Source of the DNA: Desulfomonile tiedjei
GTDB lineage: Bacteria; Desulfobacterota; Desulfomonilia; Desulfomonilales; Desulfomonilaceae
Assembly: GCA_016218715.1 (NCBI GenBank)
Contig: JACRDG010000083.1
Location: forward strand, 1 to 64,000
DNA length: 64,000 nucleotides
Direction: 5' to 3'
Part shown: positions 9,347-19,606 of the stretch, piece by piece
Layout of the letters: the number at the start of each line of letters is the position of its first letter
Numbering within the stretch: the first letter of the stretch is position 1
Notes under the pieces: generated by a model
The model's input: only the letters and a program-made list of their open reading frames with translations
Told to the model about the DNA's origin: nothing
Databases searched by the model: none
Translations under genes and position numbers: made by a program

Positions 9347-10315
9347 CTACCGGTACAGGTCAGCAGCATGGAACAGAAGGATCCGCAACCCGATCAGGGC
9401 TGCGAGGACCAACAAGCCCGTTGTTACCATCAAGGCATTGGTGGCTCGAATTTGCGCAGCGGTCAGAGGCTCTATCGGATCGCCCAGATACTCCTTATGC
9501 GAAGGTACTCCCTCATAGAAACTCGTGCCGCCCAATTGCACGCCCAAGGCCCCGGCTACCGCGGCCTCCGACTGCCCTGCATTGGGACTCGGATGTTTGT
9601 TCCGGTCCCGCAGGAAGATCCTGACCGATGACATAGGCCGCAATCCGAGGATCAGGGCCGCGACCGGGACGAATATTGCCGTCAAGCGGCTTGGCACAAA
9701 GGCCGCCAAATCGTCCAGTCGCGCGGAAGCCCAACCGAATTCCCTGTACCGCTCGTTCTTGTACCCGAACGTGGAATCGAGCGTACTGACAGCTTTGTAC
9801 GCCATGATCCCGACCGGACCGCCCACAGCGGCCCAAAACAGGGGTGCGGTCACCCCGTCCACCATGTTCTCGGCAACGCTCTCCACGGTGGCTCGGGCGG
9901 TTCCCGATTCGTCAAGCCGATCGGTGTCTCGCCCGCAGATCATGCCGACCCTGACTCTTGCCTCTACCAGATCCTCGGCCTCCAAGGCCCGCCACACCTC
10001 CGTGCTGTGCCTCAGGAGATCCCGTGCGGCCAGCCCCGTATACATGACCAGTATTGACATTGCATCGCCGAACCAGGGATGCAAATGTCCCGAAACCCTG
10101 ACCAGGGCGTAGGTGACGCAGGCTGCAGCGCCGACAACGACCGCTGCAGCGCAGATTCCGGCCGATCGCGCGGAGTGGAACCCTCGGCGCAGCGGCTGTT
10201 CCAGGAACAAAGCGAATCGGCCAATCAACCGGACCGGGTGGGGAAACCATCGGGGATCGCCGAGAAGCAGGTCCAGAGTCACAGCCAGGAGGATCTGGTA
10301 CTCGAGCTGCATCAC
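9347..10315 (-). CDS. cbiB: Adenosylcobinamide-phosphate synthase (CbiB/CobD)
   Basis: An integral membrane protein of 322 residues that attaches the aminopropanol or its phosphate to adenosylcobyrate. It shows [18 protein letters not shown] at the N-terminus, then [47 protein letters not shown] and [19 protein letters not shown], all hallmarks of the family. Four or five hydrophobic stretches agree with membrane location. The start overlaps the stop of the upstream fusion gene by 4 bp. Confidence 0.94.
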
Positions 10316-12882
10316 AGCCCCAGCAGCGCATAGATCCGGTCCATGGGCAGGCTCCGCCGGACGACCTCTGCAAGTCGATCGAAGGCAGGCTCCAGATCGT
10401 ACCGACCACAGATCTTTCCCAGCGGAGCGAGTCCCCGCCGCACTCGAAGGCGGTCGATAAAAGAGCGCCGGAACTCGTCCGCATCAAAAATGCCGTGGAG
10501 GTACGTGCCCCATATGCGACCGTCTACGGACCTGGCTCCGTCCATCTCGCCCCGATCCGTCTCCACTACCGGCTTCACTCCGTTCGCCGCAGTACGGCCG
10601 TGGTGAATTTCGTACCCATACACGAACAGCCCCGACTCGAGGTGAGTGCCGGAGACGCGGGTGAGTGTCTTCTCCGGTGCCAGCACGGTCGTCAACTCGA
10701 GAAAACCCAGGCCTGCCAGAGTTCCCTGGTCCGACTCCAGGCCGTGAGGGTCTTCGATCCCGCTCCCGATCATCTGCAGGCCGCCGCAAATCCCGACCAC
10801 TTCGCTCGTCCCGTCGCGCACCAGTTCGTTGATCCGCTCGGCGATCCCACGATTCCTGAGATCCTGTAGGTCACCGATGACATTCTTGCTTCCGGGCAGG
10901 ATGATCGCATCAGGCTCCGTCAGATCGGTCGCGGCCCGGATCACCTTCAGCCGCACATCCGGCTCGACACGGAACGCGTCGAAATCCGTGAAGTTCGAAA
11001 TGTGCGGCACGTCGATGACCGCGATCTCGACGCACTCGGGGAGGCGTTCCGGCTCGACGGCAAGGCGGCTCTTGAAAGTGACCGAATCCTCCTCCGGGAG
11101 CCCCAGGTCCTGGATGTACGGGACGACCCCCAGGACCGGTCGGCCCGTGTGCCGGAGCGTATATTCCATGGCCGAGTCAAGCAGATCTTCTTGCCCGCGG
11201 AAGCGATTCACCACAAATCCGGCCACCAGATCCCGTTCCCATTCGGCAAGGACTTCCATGGTCCCGATGAACGAGGCAAACACCCCACCCCGGTCGATGT
11301 CTCCGACGAGCAGCACCGGCGATCGGGCGTACCGCGCCATCTGCATGTTCACGATGTCGTGGTGCTTGAGGTTCACCTCCGCAGGGCTCCCCGCTCCCTC
11401 CAGGACCATGACGTCGAACGCTTCGGCCAGCGAGTCGTAGGCTGCTTTCGCCGCTTCGAACGCGGTAGGCTTGTACCGGACGTACTCCGTGACGTTCATG
11501 TTTCCCACGGGCTTGCCGAGGAGTATCACCTGGCTCCCTGTATCGGAATTGGGCTTCAACAGGATCGGATTCATCCGGACGTCCGGTTCCAGACGGCAGG
11601 CATGGGCCTGGACCACCTGCGCCCGTCCCATCTCACCACCATCTCTCGTCACGAAGGAGTTCAGGGACATGTTCTGGCATTTGAACGGAGCGACCCGGTG
11701 ACCGTCCTGGAGAAGAATGCGCGCCAGGGCAGCGGTGAGGATGCTCTTCCCTGCATTGGAGCTGGTCCCCTGGACCATAATGGCTGGGGTACGGGATTTC
11801 TTGTGATGACTCGGGGCAATTCCCACAGAACCTTTCAGCGATTCCAACAACGTGAGGTTATCCTCTCGACTGCGCACCGCCACCCTGAAGAAGCGCCGGT
11901 CGAGCCCCTCAAAATTGTCACATACGCGAAGCGCCACACCGCGGGCAAGGGTCCGCCGGGCAAGCTCAGGAGCATCAATGTCCGACCGGTCAATCCGCGC
12001 GAGGAGGAAATTGGCCTTTCCCGGGTACACGTGAAAGCCGGGAATGGCCTGCAATTGGCCGTGCAGGAACTCTCGCTCGTCGCCGACGAGCCGGAGGCTC
12101 CGTTCGACATAATCCGTATCCTCACATGCGGCGATCCCAACCGCCTGAGCGAATCGGTTTACCGACCACGGTGGCTGCACCTGCTCGGCCCTGGCAACCA
12201 ATTCCCGGTCAGCCACCGCGAAACCGAGCCGAAGTCCAGGAATGGCATAGGTTTTGGTCAGGGAAATCACTACGACAACGTTTGGTGGTCGATCGACGAG
12301 GAAGCTTTCAACCCCGTCCGAGAGCTCGAGGAACGCCTCATCCACAACGAAGAGCGTGGACGAGTTCCGCTCTGCGAGATCCAGCAGGGCCTTCCGGTCG
12401 AGCGGCAGACCGGTAGGGTTGTTGGGATGGCCCACATAAACAAGCTGATCGTCTTCCAGGAGCGATCCGAGAGTTTCATAATCGATGCGGAACTCGTCCT
12501 CCTCCTTCAGAAGCAGCGTGTCGACAGCCACTCCGGCAAGTTGAGCGGCATTGGCATAATCCAGGTAGGACGGGACCGGAACGATGGCCCATTGCTTTTC
12601 CACCGCCCTCGGAATCAGGTAGATGAGTTCCGTAGAGCCGTTCCCCACGAGGATTTCATCGGTTTCCACGCGGTATCTTCGCGCCAGGGCTCTTTTCAGG
12701 TCGGAAGACTCGGGGTCGGGGTAGTGAACCGCGCCGGTCAGCGCGGAACTCACCACGCCCCTCAGCCATTCCGGCGGGCCCAGAGGATTGATGTTGGCGG
12801 AGAAGTCGATGATTTGGTCGTCACGCAGCCCTGCTTCGCGTGCAAAATTCCGTATATGGCCGCCATGCTTGAATTTGGACAT
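10312..12882 (-). CDS. Fusion of threonine-phosphate decarboxylase (CobD/CobC) and cobyric acid synthase (CbiP/CobQ)
   Basis: One 856-residue chain. Residues 1-360 are a fold-type I PLP enzyme: [37 protein letters not shown], and [14 protein letters not shown] with the PLP Lys at about 210. This half makes aminopropanol phosphate. Residues 364-856 are cobyric acid synthase: P-loop [10 protein letters not shown] at 371-380, [24 protein letters not shown], and the glutaminase Cys in [13 protein letters not shown]. This half amidates the b, d, e and g carboxylates. AAGGTG precedes the ATG. Both products meet at CbiB, encoded next. It is the first gene of the operon in this window. Confidence 0.93.
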
Positions 12883-13124
12883 AGAGCACCTTTGCCGGTG
12901 ATCATGCACCATCGCAATTCAGATGGGTCACGTCTACTCCGGTGAACGGTCACCTTTTCGAACACCCCCTGTGCACAAGGGTGCGAGAGCCGCGGAACGG
13001 ATTCGTGCACGGGGACCCTTCAGGTGGACCATAAAACCGCTCGAAGGTCAAGCGCCGACGGACTCGCGGCGTAGCGATGGGGAGGAGGAGGGCTGAATCG
13101 ACCACGATAGAAAGGAGGGCGGGC
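12883..13124. other. Intergenic region upstream of the cobalamin operon
   Basis: This 240-bp stretch precedes the first cobalamin gene. It was checked for cobalamin-riboswitch boxes (the conserved AGCCACTG and GGGAA blocks) and none are seen. A small CGCCG/CGGCG hairpin lies at 13,052-13,071. No convincing promoter was recognised. Confidence 0.5.
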
Positions 13125-16100
13125 TCACGCCTTGGAGGCGCGGTCGCGTTTGCCGCGACTGGTCACGCGTTTCTCGGAATCTGCGGCGCAGTAAGACTCC
13201 ACGGTTTCCAGCCACGCAACGAGGCTGCGGTTCAGGATTTCCTGAGCCCGCTTGGTGTCGAGGCGGTACTTTTCCGGGATGAACGAGAGGTCCACCGTGT
13301 AGATTCCGTCGGTTCGCCTCAAGAACGGGCAGGTATCCAGGAGATCCGGACCGAGCTGCGAGATGTGGTAGTAGGCCCTGTTGAGCGAGGCCTTGCACCC
13401 CTTGATCTTGAATTCCTGAACGGTGTAGTTGTTTGCGAACAGGGTCAGGCCGGCAAAGGCCGGGCTCGGGGAAAAATCCATCAGACCAGGACTCTGCTTG
13501 ACGAAAAAGAAAAATGGAGCAAAGACGGACAGGTGCACCGGCGCGGGGTAGGTCTCTCCGACCACGTGCTCTATCTTTCGGAGTAGTGAGCTCAGATCCT
13601 CAACAGCAGGATCGAAATCCCAGATGAGTCCATGCTCTTCCAGTTCCGGGAACCTCCCCCGAAAGGCGTCTCTCACGTCAGACCTGACCAGGAACGCATT
13701 TCCACCCCGTTCCCAGAAGTGATTCTTGACGCAGTCCACCTCCAACTCGCCGACATCCTTCACGTAGACCGCTCTGAAATAGAGGTTCTTCGATCTTCGC
13801 GCCTCACACAGTTCCTGTGCGGTCAACCGGGCATGGGGGACCAGTCGCGAATCGAGGGCCTTCAATTCTTCTGTCTCGATCAACGCGATGTCAGCCACCT
13901 GGAGAATGTGGTCCACCGCTATGATTTGCAGCATGTGGCGTTCGTGATCGAAGGAATCGTGCGGGAGCCGCCATTGCTCGTACGTCAGTACCTGGAGCTC
14001 GTTCTTCAGAGGCTCGGAGAGGCGTTCGATCCCGCCTTCTCCATAGAGATTCTCCGCAGGGATGATCAGGGTCTTGCATCCCGCGTCGAACGCGGTTTCG
14101 AGCTTGATGTCAAGCCCTCCGACCTCCGTGATTCTTCCCTGGGTGTCGATCTCGCCGGTCACAGCCACATCCCGCCTCACCGGACGGCCAGAGAGGACCG
14201 AAGCCAGTGCCAGCGCAATCGCGCCTCCTGCCGAAGGGCCGTCCTTGGGAGAGGAGCCGCCCATAAAGTGTAGGTGAATTGGCTGCTCGGCCTTGCTCAG
14301 ATCGATATGGAGCCCTGCGGCACAATGAAAGATCGCGGTTGTAGCCACCTTCCGGCTTTCATCCATGACCTTCTGAATGTTTCCCGTCGCGTGGATCATG
14401 CTCAGGTATCCGGGACGTCCTTCCGCAAGCGGAATCGGGGTTGCCTGAACCGGTATAATGGACCCGACACCCAGCTCGACATTGATGCCGAGCCCGCTGG
14501 TCTCGCCGACGCGGTCTTCTTCGCTGATCTTGCGTGGGCCTCTCGGAGCATCGAGGTACTGCTTGATCTTTTCCCGGGTGATCTTTACAGACCGCTCGTG
14601 GCCGGAGAAGATCTCTTTTCTGAAGATGCGCAGGAAAAGGGTCCGGATGATCCGTTCCAGCTCACGAACGCCGGCTTCATGAGTGTAGGTCTTGATGAGG
14701 TACCGGAACAGACCGGTCTCCTGCGTGGGGTCCAGCAGGATATACTCCCCGCTGATTTGATATTTTTCGCGCACTCGTCCGATCAGGTGCTGCCGCGCGA
14801 TGGAGACTTTCTCCTCGATGCTGTACCGGTCCAGCATCACCACTTCGCAGCGGTTGACGACTGGCGCAGGGACCGTTTCCAGCGTATTGGCGGTCAGGAT
14901 GAAGTGACAGTTCGAGAGGTCCACATCGATGGTGGTCTGCGTATACTTGTCATGAAAGAGGTGGTTCTGCTCCGGGTCGAGAATCTCCAGCAGCGTGGCG
15001 ATGGCGAACTTCTCAACCTTGTCCGCCTCGTCCATGATAAACATGCCGTTGGTGACCCCCATCTTGATCAAACCCTGGACGATCGCTCCGGGCTTGGAAC
15101 CCTCGTACGTGAACCCATGACCGCGAAGGTCCGCCTCGTCGCGCATGCCCCCCAAAGAGAGCTTGTGGTACGGGATCCCGAGGTTCTGGGCAATGGAAAT
15201 AGCCAGTGAGGTCTTACCCACTCCTGGAGGCCCCACAAAGAGGAACGCACTCCCGTTGGTTCGCCAGGTCGCGGCGCTTTCTTCGGTAAATGAGCGATAG
15301 CGCCAGATGAGGTTGGTGAAGAAGTCACAGATGATCTCTTTCGGCTTGGCGAGCCCGTAATGGCTCCGGTCAAGACCGTCCTCGAACGCCTCGGGTGAAA
15401 CCCCGATCTGCTGGATCTTGCCCCACGGAATGGCCAGGAGGGTCTCGATGAACTCGCTGTACTTCGATCCGCTGTGGCCTACCGCATTGAGCTTGTTCTT
15501 GTCGATCGCTTCCAGGACCTGAGGCGGAATGCGCGAGTCGGCGTGAGCCTCGTCGATACGGTCCTTGAGCGTCTTGACAGGCAGTGGTGCGGGTGTTTTC
15601 GGTGCGACGTAGGCCGCTGCAGGAGCCACCGGTATGCCGCCGAACAACCCCTGCGTCTCCTGAGAGAATCTTCGGAGCGTCTCTTTAAAGACTTGGAAGA
15701 TTTCCGGGATGCTCCGATGTTCCACACTGCTCTCAGGGATGCCCAGTTCGTGGAGGAGCGCAACCAGGCCCCACCGATCCTTGAATGCGTTGAACACGTC
15801 TTCGGCAACATGATTGCCGTCGATCACCAGGAGTTCAAAGAGGCGCAGCAATTGTTGCAGAAAGGTCGTGCGTTTCAACAGCGAGTACGTGGTGTCGCGG
15901 CTCCTCCGGAAGCATGTCCCGAGGATTCTCGTCTTGACATCCTTATCCTGAATAGGAAAAACCTGTTCAAGGAGACCTTCCGGCAGGTCTACCAGGATGT
16001 CCACATAGAGCGTCAAGATGTCATCGATCGACGATCTGTATGGTTGTTCCCGTTCCACGAGGTCGAGCAACGCGGCAAACTGTGCCCCTTTGAGACCGTT

Positions 16101-16619
16101 GAGTTCGTCGGAAAGGGAGCTACGAAGCATCCGGTAGAATGTCGGGTCGGTGACGCGGCGGTCCGCGGCGAAAACGATATCCGAATCGATGACCTCTCGT
16201 TCGGTTCGCTGCGGGTAGAGCAGGTGCTCGATTTCGTGACGTAACAGGAACTCGAAGAAGGCCAACACCTTGTGTTCTTCCGGAGATCCGTCGCCGAGGC
16301 GGGCTTCCGGATGAGTCGGTATGACGAATGCCAGGTAATCAAAGACCCGTTCGTGGATGTGGATAACCCAACCCTGGTCTTTTCGTGTGGTCAGGCTTAC
16401 GCAGCGGACTCTCTTGTCTTCGTCCTCCAGGCGCTCGATGGAAAGGTTCTCGGCCACCCGCGCCATCGTAATGGCATCGGTGCCGCGATTCTTCCGAAAG
16501 TAGGGCATGATGCGCCTGGAAATCGTCGCGTTGACGATGTGCACCACGCGCTTGACATCCTCCTCGGTGGTGAGGGGGAGCGTGTCCAGGATTGCGTGGT
16601 CGAATTCAATGGGAAACAT
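13125..16619 (-). CDS. Lon-type ATP-dependent protease with N-terminal HExxH domain
   Basis: A 1164-residue AAA+ protease, longer than housekeeping Lon (about 800). Residues 1-330 are not the usual LonN fold and contain RHEIEHLL, a zinc-metallopeptidase-like HExxH at 128-132 with acidic residues following. The AAA+ module has Walker A GPPGVGKT (463-470), the Lon-typical GGMRDEADLRGH and Walker B FIMDEADK. The protease part has Ser796 in PKDGPSAGGA and Lys839 in GGLDIKLE; the 43-residue spacing equals that of E. coli Lon. About 250 extra C-terminal residues have no recognised domain. The start lies inside the preceding pentapeptide gene (14-bp overlap). Confidence 0.88.
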   Translation of the reverse strand: MFPIEFDHAILDTLPLTTEEDVKRVVHIVNATISRRIMPYFRKNRGTDAITMARVAENLSIERLEDEDKRVRCVSLTTRKDQGWVIHIHERVFDYLAFVIPTHPEARLGDGSPEEHKVLAFFEFLLRHEIEHLLYPQRTEREVIDSDIVFAADRRVTDPTFYRMLRSSLSDELNGLKGAQFAALLDLVEREQPYRSSIDDILTLYVDILVDLPEGLLEQVFPIQDKDVKTRILGTCFRRSRDTTYSLLKRTTFLQQLLRLFELLVIDGNHVAEDVFNAFKDRWGLVALLHELGIPESSVEHRSIPEIFQVFKETLRRFSQETQGLFGGIPVAPAAAYVAPKTPAPLPVKTLKDRIDEAHADSRIPPQVLEAIDKNKLNAVGHSGSKYSEFIETLLAIPWGKIQQIGVSPEAFEDGLDRSHYGLAKPKEIICDFFTNLIWRYRSFTEESAATWRTNGSAFLFVGPPGVGKTSLAISIAQNLGIPYHKLSLGGMRDEADLRGHGFTYEGSKPGAIVQGLIKMGVTNGMFIMDEADKVEKFAIATLLEILDPEQNHLFHDKYTQTTIDVDLSNCHFILTANTLETVPAPVVNRCEVVMLDRYSIEEKVSIARQHLIGRVREKYQISGEYILLDPTQETGLFRYLIKTYTHEAGVRELERIIRTLFLRIFRKEIFSGHERSVKITREKIKQYLDAPRGPRKISEEDRVGETSGLGINVELGVGSIIPVQATPIPLAEGRPGYLSMIHATGNIQKVMDESRKVATTAIFHCAAGLHIDLSKAEQPIHLHFMGGSSPKDGPSAGGAIALALASVLSGRPVRRDVAVTGEIDTQGRITEVGGLDIKLETAFDAGCKTLIIPAENLYGEGGIERLSEPLKNELQVLTYEQWRLPHDSFDHERHMLQIIAVDHILQVADIALIETEELKALDSRLVPHARLTAQELCEARRSKNLYFRAVYVKDVGELEVDCVKNHFWERGGNAFLVRSDVRDAFRGRFPELEEHGLIWDFDPAVEDLSSLLRKIEHVVGETYPAPVHLSVFAPFFFFVKQSPGLMDFSPSPAFAGLTLFANNYTVQEFKIKGCKASLNRAYYHISQLGPDLLDTCPFLRRTDGIYTVDLSFIPEKYRLDTKRAQEILNRSLVAWLETVESYCAADSEKRVTSRGKRDRASKA

Positions 16620-17752: not shown

Positions 17753-19606
17753 ATGCGCTGGCAAGATCAATACTCCTCCAAGCTTGTCTCACCCGAGGAG
17801 GCTGTCAAGAGAGTCAAGAACGGGGACAGAATCTACCTCGGCAGTATGTGTTCCGAACCAAAAACCATGCTGCGCTCACTGGAAGCTTCATTTGTCGAGG
17901 ACGTGGAGATCGTTCAATTCATCAGTGGCTCCGAAGCCTCCCGACTGGCCGACACTGGGGGGTACCGCTTCAGGATGAAGACGTTCTTTGCCGGCATCGC
18001 ATCGGGCGATTCGGTGGACCCACACTTATACAATTATATTCCGCTCTTCCACTCCCAGATTCCCTTCTTTTTCAGAAATCGTCGCATCCCCATCGATGTA
18101 GCGATCGTCCAGGTTTCTGAGCCGGATCGATTCGGCAGGTTCAGCCTCGGCATTTCGGTGGACTTCACCATGGCTGCCGTGGAGACCGCTCGAACCGTCA
18201 TAGCTCAGGTCAATTCCCTCATGCCCCGTACTAATGGAGACACGTTCATACCGCTGGAGAAAATAGACTATCTGGTGGATGCGCCGGAACCGCTGGGGGA
18301 ATTGCCGGAAGAACCGCTAGGGGAGCGAGAAAGGACGATCAGTGCCTATTGTAGTGAACTGATCGACGATGGTTCCATCGTCCAATTCGGCTTTGCGGGG
18401 ATCTCACGGGGCCTTATGGATTTTCTCAAGGATCACCGACATCTCGGCATTCATACCGAGATCTTCACCGATCCTCTTATTGATCTCGTCGAATCCGGGG
18501 TCGTAGACAACAGCACCAAGAAGATGTACCGCGGCAAGTCCCTTGCCACCACCTGCATGGGAACCCGGAGACTCTACGACTACGTGCACGACAACTCTCT
18601 CGTAGAGTTCTATCCTTCCGACATGCTGCTGAATCCTACGTTCATAGCGTCGAACGATCGCATGGTCGCGGTCAATCTGGCCATGCAGGTGGATATCAGG
18701 GGACAGCTCAGACGCGGCACTGCTACCTGGACAGCCTTCGAAGGATCCGCCGGCGACAGCGATTTCATGAGGGGAGCGAATCTGTCCAAGGGAGGCCGGT
18801 CAATCATTTGCCTGCGGTCCACTTCGCCCACGAGCGGCAAATCGACCATCGTGCCGACCTTTGGGCCGAAGTCGACCGTCATAGCGAATCAGGGGGACGC
18901 CAATTACGTCATTACCGAGTACGGGATTGCCTATCTGGGCGGACGAACAATCCGTGAACGCGCAATGGCACTAATTGAAATTGCACACCCGGACCATCGA
19001 GAAGACCTGATGAAGGCTGCGCGCGACCTGGGCTACGTATTTCCGGATCAGGTGTACTACCGCATTTGCTCACCTGAACTCCGCCGTCGCATCCGCACGG
19101 ACCGCGTTTTCAAAGGCGGCCTGAAGGGCCACATACGCGTGATCAAGTCCACCGACGAAACGATGCTCAGAGACCTTTTCTATAACTTGTCCGAAGAATC
19201 GGTCTATTTCCGGTACTTCAGCACCCGCAGGAGCATGCCCCACAGGAACCTTCAACAATATGTGAACGTTACGGAGCAGGAGGGACTCTCTCTCGTAATC
19301 ACCATCGGAGACCGGGAAGATCGCAAAGTCATTGCGGAGGCACGTTACATGCTCAACCCCGACGACCTGTACCCGGACGTGGCATTCATGGTCGATGAGA
19401 ACTATCGGGGCCGTGGACTCGCCAGCACTTTACTCCACTACCTGAGCGATATTGCGAGGGAACGCGGGATCGAGGGATTTCGGGCCGAGGTTCTTATCTC
19501 CAACCGGTCTATGATGAAGGTCTTTGAGAAACTGCCGTACGTCCTGCACAGAACCATAGAGCAGGATTGCATCTCGCTGAAATTCAACTTTTCCGAACTG
19601 AAATGA
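17753..19606 (+). CDS. Acetyl-CoA hydrolase/CoA-transferase fused to a GNAT acetyltransferase
   Basis: A 617-residue two-domain protein. Residues 1-440 belong to the acetyl-CoA hydrolase / 4-hydroxybutyrate CoA-transferase family: GDRIYLGSMCSEP near the N-terminus, a central beta-alpha body, and VITEYGIAYLGGRTIRERA, which holds the Glu expected to carry the CoA thioester. Residues 455-617 form a GNAT domain with VAFMVDENYRGRGLASTLLHYL, the acetyl-CoA binding loop. The pairing suggests CoA-ester metabolism linked to protein or small-molecule acetylation. The next gene converges from the right with a 34-bp gap. Confidence 0.9.
   Translation: MRWQDQYSSKLVSPEEAVKRVKNGDRIYLGSMCSEPKTMLRSLEASFVEDVEIVQFISGSEASRLADTGGYRFRMKTFFAGIASGDSVDPHLYNYIPLFHSQIPFFFRNRRIPIDVAIVQVSEPDRFGRFSLGISVDFTMAAVETARTVIAQVNSLMPRTNGDTFIPLEKIDYLVDAPEPLGELPEEPLGERERTISAYCSELIDDGSIVQFGFAGISRGLMDFLKDHRHLGIHTEIFTDPLIDLVESGVVDNSTKKMYRGKSLATTCMGTRRLYDYVHDNSLVEFYPSDMLLNPTFIASNDRMVAVNLAMQVDIRGQLRRGTATWTAFEGSAGDSDFMRGANLSKGGRSIICLRSTSPTSGKSTIVPTFGPKSTVIANQGDANYVITEYGIAYLGGRTIRERAMALIEIAHPDHREDLMKAARDLGYVFPDQVYYRICSPELRRRIRTDRVFKGGLKGHIRVIKSTDETMLRDLFYNLSEESVYFRYFSTRRSMPHRNLQQYVNVTEQEGLSLVITIGDREDRKVIAEARYMLNPDDLYPDVAFMVDENYRGRGLASTLLHYLSDIARERGIEGFRAEVLISNRSMMKVFEKLPYVLHRTIEQDCISLKFNFSELK

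Follow-up and report, generated by a model that had tools for sequence, protein, structure and literature searches.

A distinct clade of Lon-type proteases with a probable zincin-like domain in place of the LonN substrate domain

The window (the whole 64,000-nucleotide stretch of Desulfomonile tiedjei DNA analysed here) contains a Lon-type gene whose product, judged from its sequence, falls in a Lon clade at some distance from canonical LonA. Its architecture is fixed: a predicted zincin-like domain, a helical domain, a Pro-rich linker, the ATPase and protease, and a C-terminal alpha/beta domain, in that order (Table 1). It is best explained as belonging to a separate, LonA-derived subfamily of ATP-dependent Ser/Lys proteases, and the core claims made for it are drawn from sequence counts. 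The clade appears to be new; no description of this architecture was found in the accessible portions of the open-licence literature. Substrate choice by Lon is not yet understood, and this clade offers a natural experiment on selection, grip, and delivery: it has exchanged the recognition end and the two pore loops, and probably the long helix as well, and has kept the motor and protease.

Table 1. Features of the Lon-type gene, in window coordinates.
Feature	Position	Strand	Residues	Basis or remark
Whole gene	13125..16619	-	1164 aa + stop	
Predicted zincin-like N-terminal domain	16038..16619	-	1-194	boundary approximate; AF2 model, VIA-align
RHEIEH	16224..16241	-	127-132	conserved form RHxxEH (alignment)
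Start of next helix	16167..16202	-	140-151	Glu140 and invariant Asp147, putative third metal ligands
All-helical domain	15657..16037	-	195-321	model
Pro-rich low-confidence linker	15570..15656	-	322-350	model, alignment
Three-helix region and AAA+ module	14544..15569	-	351-692	Pfam, alignment to solved Lons
Pore loop 1	15102..15107	-		Tyr505 kept; Glu506 replaces Ile/Val
Pore loop 2	15006..15011	-		four-residue deletion (canonical DFRG) between residues 537 and 538
Lon Ser/Lys protease domain	13887..14528	-	698-911	end estimated
Catalytic Ser796 codon	14232..14234	-		
Catalytic Lys839 codon	14103..14105	-		
C-terminal alpha/beta domain	13128..13886	-	912-1164	model; no known family matched

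The gene begins with ATG, and because the motif at its start, MFP.EFDH, is common to its relatives, the start is sound. Pfam matches cover AAA (residues 460-595), Lon_lid (638-665), and Lon_C (679-881), and residues 349 to about 870 align to solved Lon proteases; the end of the protease domain, near residue 911, is our own estimate. The catalytic Ser lies in KDGPSAG, preceded by Pro795, and Lys839 follows at a distance of 43. Pfam and alignment thus agree with the preliminary description, which reported an intact AAA+ module and a Ser796/Lys839 dyad at this spacing. Walker A and B, the sensors, and the Arg finger (residues to which we assign their usual AAA+ roles) are kept together with the Ser and Lys in 15/15 family rows of the core alignment. 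Among 34 family rows, of which L035 and L150 are one gene, the Lys is present in all and the Ser in 33. The exception, L141 (G397:C1:3373000-3391500, on a 4.5-Mb contig), has an Ala codon, GCC, at the position of Ser796, where its sister L146 has TCG, a Ser codon. L141 may be a natural unfoldase-only Lon, or it may reflect a recent loss or an error; since it has no catalytic Ser, proteolysis is perhaps not the point in every member.

In a tree of Lon cores, the 15 family rows group as a single clade that excludes the 23 other cores compared, with 66-76% core identity to the window Lon vs 36-39% for the others. Only rows with GPSAG entered this tree, leaving out L141, L024, and L165, the first two of which were read separately. 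A profile search of the genome's ORFs found the substrate-binding domain LON_substr_bdg (PF02190) in three other Lon ORFs and not in the window Lon, as expected from the earlier statement that LonN is replaced by a region containing HExxH; there are seven Lon_C matches in the genome in all, two of them weak. Against the NCBIfam lon model (TIGR00763) the window Lon scores 375 bits, below the equivalog cut-off of 608. With PF02190 missing and this cut-off not reached, LonA-like variant is the best name. It shares with LonA (endopeptidase La, S16, A-type centre) the AAA+ and Ser/Lys core, the Pro before the catalytic Ser, and the 42 residues between Ser and Lys. It differs from LonA in lacking the PF02190 N-domain, in the Pro-rich linker ahead of the three-helix region, in its altered pore loops, and in its additional C-terminal domain. 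Other members of the family also depart from LonA: LonC is reported to have lost ATPase residues, and LonB to have Asp before the catalytic Ser (PMC9569914). The window clade, in contrast, keeps the ATPase residues and has Pro (Pro795), not Asp, before the Ser.

The fold of the N-terminal region comes from one predicted model, built with AF2 from a 20-row alignment (mean pLDDT 86.5). It has two helices, three strands, a helix, a helix at residues 113-134 carrying the motif, another at 140-157, and then an all-helical part. His128 and His132 lie one turn apart on the same predicted helix, after the sheet. VIA-align gave selecase as the top match, at a borderline Z of 8.3 (108 residues aligned, rmsd 3.3); values below 8 can reflect a common arrangement. 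Of the 50 matches listed, 23 fall wholly within the first 220 residues, and 14 of these are zincins (six aminopeptidase N, four selecase, two SPRTN, one BlaR1, and one Acel_2062). The other nine are baculovirus capsid proteins (six) and TRAP1 (three). The six capsid matches, from AcMNPV, lie at residues 14-184 with Z of 5.1 to 5.9 and may be a common arrangement. M78 and M48 chains, the zincins with which comparison had initially been proposed, were not recognisable among the 50 matches listed, which carries no weight against these families. In Foldseek the N-terminal model had zero matches at E <= 0.001.

Nor does sequence connect the domain to a known family. Profile searches found no match in PDB or, for 20 members, in Pfam, and the best hhalign probabilities against M78 (PF06114; 1.9) and Zincin_1 (PF06262; 0.8) were no better than those of reversed-alignment controls (0.6 and 2.4). 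A minimal zincin whose sheet consists of three strands has been described, and the predicted fold resembles such minimal gluzincins (selecase, Acel_2062, PF06262) in having a short sheet, a two-His helix, and then a helix with an acidic residue (PMC3890501). It differs from them in the unconserved catalytic Glu, the missing sequence or profile link, and the fusion to Lon. Because the model resembles these proteins, a degenerate zincin-like fold is likely, and the N-domain is probably a degenerate zincin-like domain. The main competing possibility is that the domain is an unrelated one of alpha/beta-plus-helical type, with RHxxEH making up a polar network in its interior and HExxH being coincidental. 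Consistent with this are the lack of any sequence or profile link to a zincin family, the Foldseek result, the nine listed matches to other folds, and the presence of HExxH in 1712 of 20000 shuffles of the window Lon (8.6%), which makes that motif weak evidence by itself. The position of the two His on a helix after the sheet, and best structural matches drawn from several separate zincin families, speak against it, and we consider it unlikely, though a genuine contender.

Conservation within the family is uneven across the motif. HEIEH (128-132) is the sole HExxH of the window Lon. In the 20-row alignment His128 is present in 20 rows, His132 in 19, and Glu129 in eight. In 42 non-redundant rows (51 minus nine near-copies; 29-55% identity to the window Lon over the N-domain), His128 and Asp147 are found in all 42, Glu140 in 41, and His132 in 40, where the exceptions are L038 with Leu and L135 with Gln. 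Position 131 is Glu in 39 and Asp in three. At position 129, 19 rows have Q, 12 have E, eight have H, and L, D, and S occur once each. On a tree built without columns 127-132, position 129 requires at least 12 changes, His132 two, and His128 and Asp147 none. By conservation among 321 columns, ranked on the 51 rows with near-copies included, position 129 is 152nd, and the two His are 4th and 16th. The motif kept by the family is RHxxEH...E...D, and by these alignments the zincin catalytic Glu is not maintained across it.

Several selections define these counts. Alignments A2 and A3 exclude L049, whose frame is broken, L050, which is partial, and L052, which matched weakly; L137, L138, and the second G454 copy (fragments, or sequences not retrieved) and repeat loci of the same gene were left out of the motif counts. 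The frames of 18 loci, L119-L136, were located by the regular expression RH..[EDQ][HLQ], which all 18 matched, so Arg127 and His128 there are conditional on it; one earlier row listing was likewise selected by an RH..[ED] pattern. In several rows the end of the match cuts off about 24 C-terminal residues.

These counts bear on the idea, put forward in the preliminary description, of two protease activities in one chain. On this view the N-domain would be a working zinc peptidase, trimming substrates either ahead of the Lon core or once the core has acted. The window Lon itself has HEIEH with a conserved acidic residue behind it, and Glu129 is kept in 12 rows. It is absent from the other 30, at several places on the tree, with the Lon core still intact, and HExxH, whose conservation among close homologues had been named as the deciding point, is not conserved. 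The inverse motif HxxEH of inverzincins (M16) is mostly kept as H128xxE131H132, but Glu131 is Asp in three of 42 rows; M16 is absent among the 50 VIA-align matches listed, which excludes nothing. An active second protease in this chain is very improbable, and we reject it as a general function of the family, given the 30 rows that lack Glu129. Of the original interpretation, the replacement domain with a zincin-like predicted fold is supported and the second active protease is not.

Since the catalytic residue is not kept in relatives, the N-domain is more likely a substrate-catching device than a second protease. The explanation we prefer, to which we give an even chance, is a tethered, degenerate zincin-like receptor domain on a dedicated LonA-derived protease whose ring grips differently; here we infer both the receptor role and any bound metal. 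In most members the N-domain would have no peptidase chemistry; its old cleft would bind certain peptides or proteins and pass them on to the AAA+ ring, and His128, His132, and Asp147 may either hold a metal with a structural role or belong to a buried network of polar residues. The tether is supported by the model, in which pLDDT falls below 50 at residues 325-347, and the replacing domain would hang on a flexible linker. In 15 family rows the linker before the AAA+ part has 21-28 residues with 3-10 Pro, and it presumably stands where canonical LonA has its long helix. Counting against this explanation are a single predicted model with a borderline top match, the Foldseek and hhalign results, gene neighbourhoods that yielded no substrate, partner, or conserved neighbour, and L141 with no catalytic Ser. 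Should the fold be confirmed, a degenerate peptidase would have found a second use at the front of a different protease. Arabidopsis FtsHi pseudo-proteases are similar in being AAA+ proteins with a degenerate HExxH kept for function, but as described there the degenerate zincin is the FtsHi protease domain itself (PMC8197885), and here it would be an added front domain. The Ser/Lys protease, moreover, is intact in nearly all members of the window clade.

The same residues could instead form a metal-sensing gate, in which His128, His132, and Asp147 would coordinate a metal, zinc or some other, and filling of the site would turn substrate entry or the protease on and off. With the two His one turn apart on the predicted helix, residual metal binding or a metal-dependent gate has some plausibility, and the near-invariance of the three residues would fit. 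As His132 is lost in L038 and L135, a metal site is evidently not needed in every member, and a gate of this kind is improbable. Conservation of the motif and of a third ligand, suggested at the outset as a check, thus holds for the two His and for the candidates Asp147 and Glu140, but not for Glu129.

The pore loops also set the clade apart. The residue after the pore-loop-1 Tyr is Glu in 15/15 family rows vs Ile or Val in 23/23 others, and the pore-loop-2 sequence present in all 23 others (DFRG in 22, DFKG in one) is missing from all 15. Among 34 rows, L036 is the sole exception at Tyr505, with Trp in its place. Tyr397 in pore loop 1 and Trp431 in pore loop 2 are reported as substrate contacts in Lon, with an entry gate involving Tyr224 (PMC10643698), and in human LONP1 an Ala substitution at Tyr599 of pore loop 2 lowered casein degradation by 66% (PMC8163871). 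The altered loops suggest a ring with a different grip, and the substrate range is probably narrower than that of the genome's three canonical LonA copies. A more detailed version of the receptor explanation is rather unlikely as a whole: a metal-holding, catalytically dead zincin acting as a tethered peptide receptor, with both pore loops re-tuned for a narrow substrate set, perhaps metal-gated, and, in one genome or more where Ala replaces Ser796, serving as an unfoldase alone.

After the protease domain the window Lon has the roughly 250 additional residues noted initially. A model from residue 900 is alpha/beta (mean pLDDT 85.5). The best Foldseek E of 5.3e-3 and the best VIA-align Z of 7.1, to generic Rossmann-like enzymes, are too weak to name a fold, and a profile of the domain had no match in PDB or Pfam. 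The full architecture was found in nine of 60 relatives, the same nine by whole protein and by C-domain; the N- and C-domains likewise occur in the same nine. Of 395 genomes from the phylum, 16 have the N-region, as do seven of eight in one family and 30 of 55 in one class, where a few copies are fragments. Fragments and broken frames aside, the matches sit in long, Lon-size frames. Named holders include Desulfomonile, Desulfomonilaceae, Syntrophobacteraceae, Desulfosoma, Desulfarculales, and Deltaproteobacteria. Thirteen phage records had a match, always over less than 80% of the query, and PADLOC defence models gave AAA/Lon-type matches only.

When gene neighbourhoods were compared across clades, no neighbour of the window Lon gene was shared at the same place. 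On the same strand, the last 14 bases of a pentapeptide-repeat gene (PF00805; 16606-17373, minus) overlap the start of the Lon gene; this neighbour is not common to the other loci compared. Two nearby ORFs are fusions. One of 866 aa at 10312-12912 (minus) holds both an aminotransferase (PF00155) and a cobyric acid synthase of the CobQ type (CbiA and GATase_3) and is followed by a CobD/CbiB gene, and another at 17753-19606 (plus) combines an acetyl-CoA hydrolase/transferase with a GNAT acetyltransferase domain.
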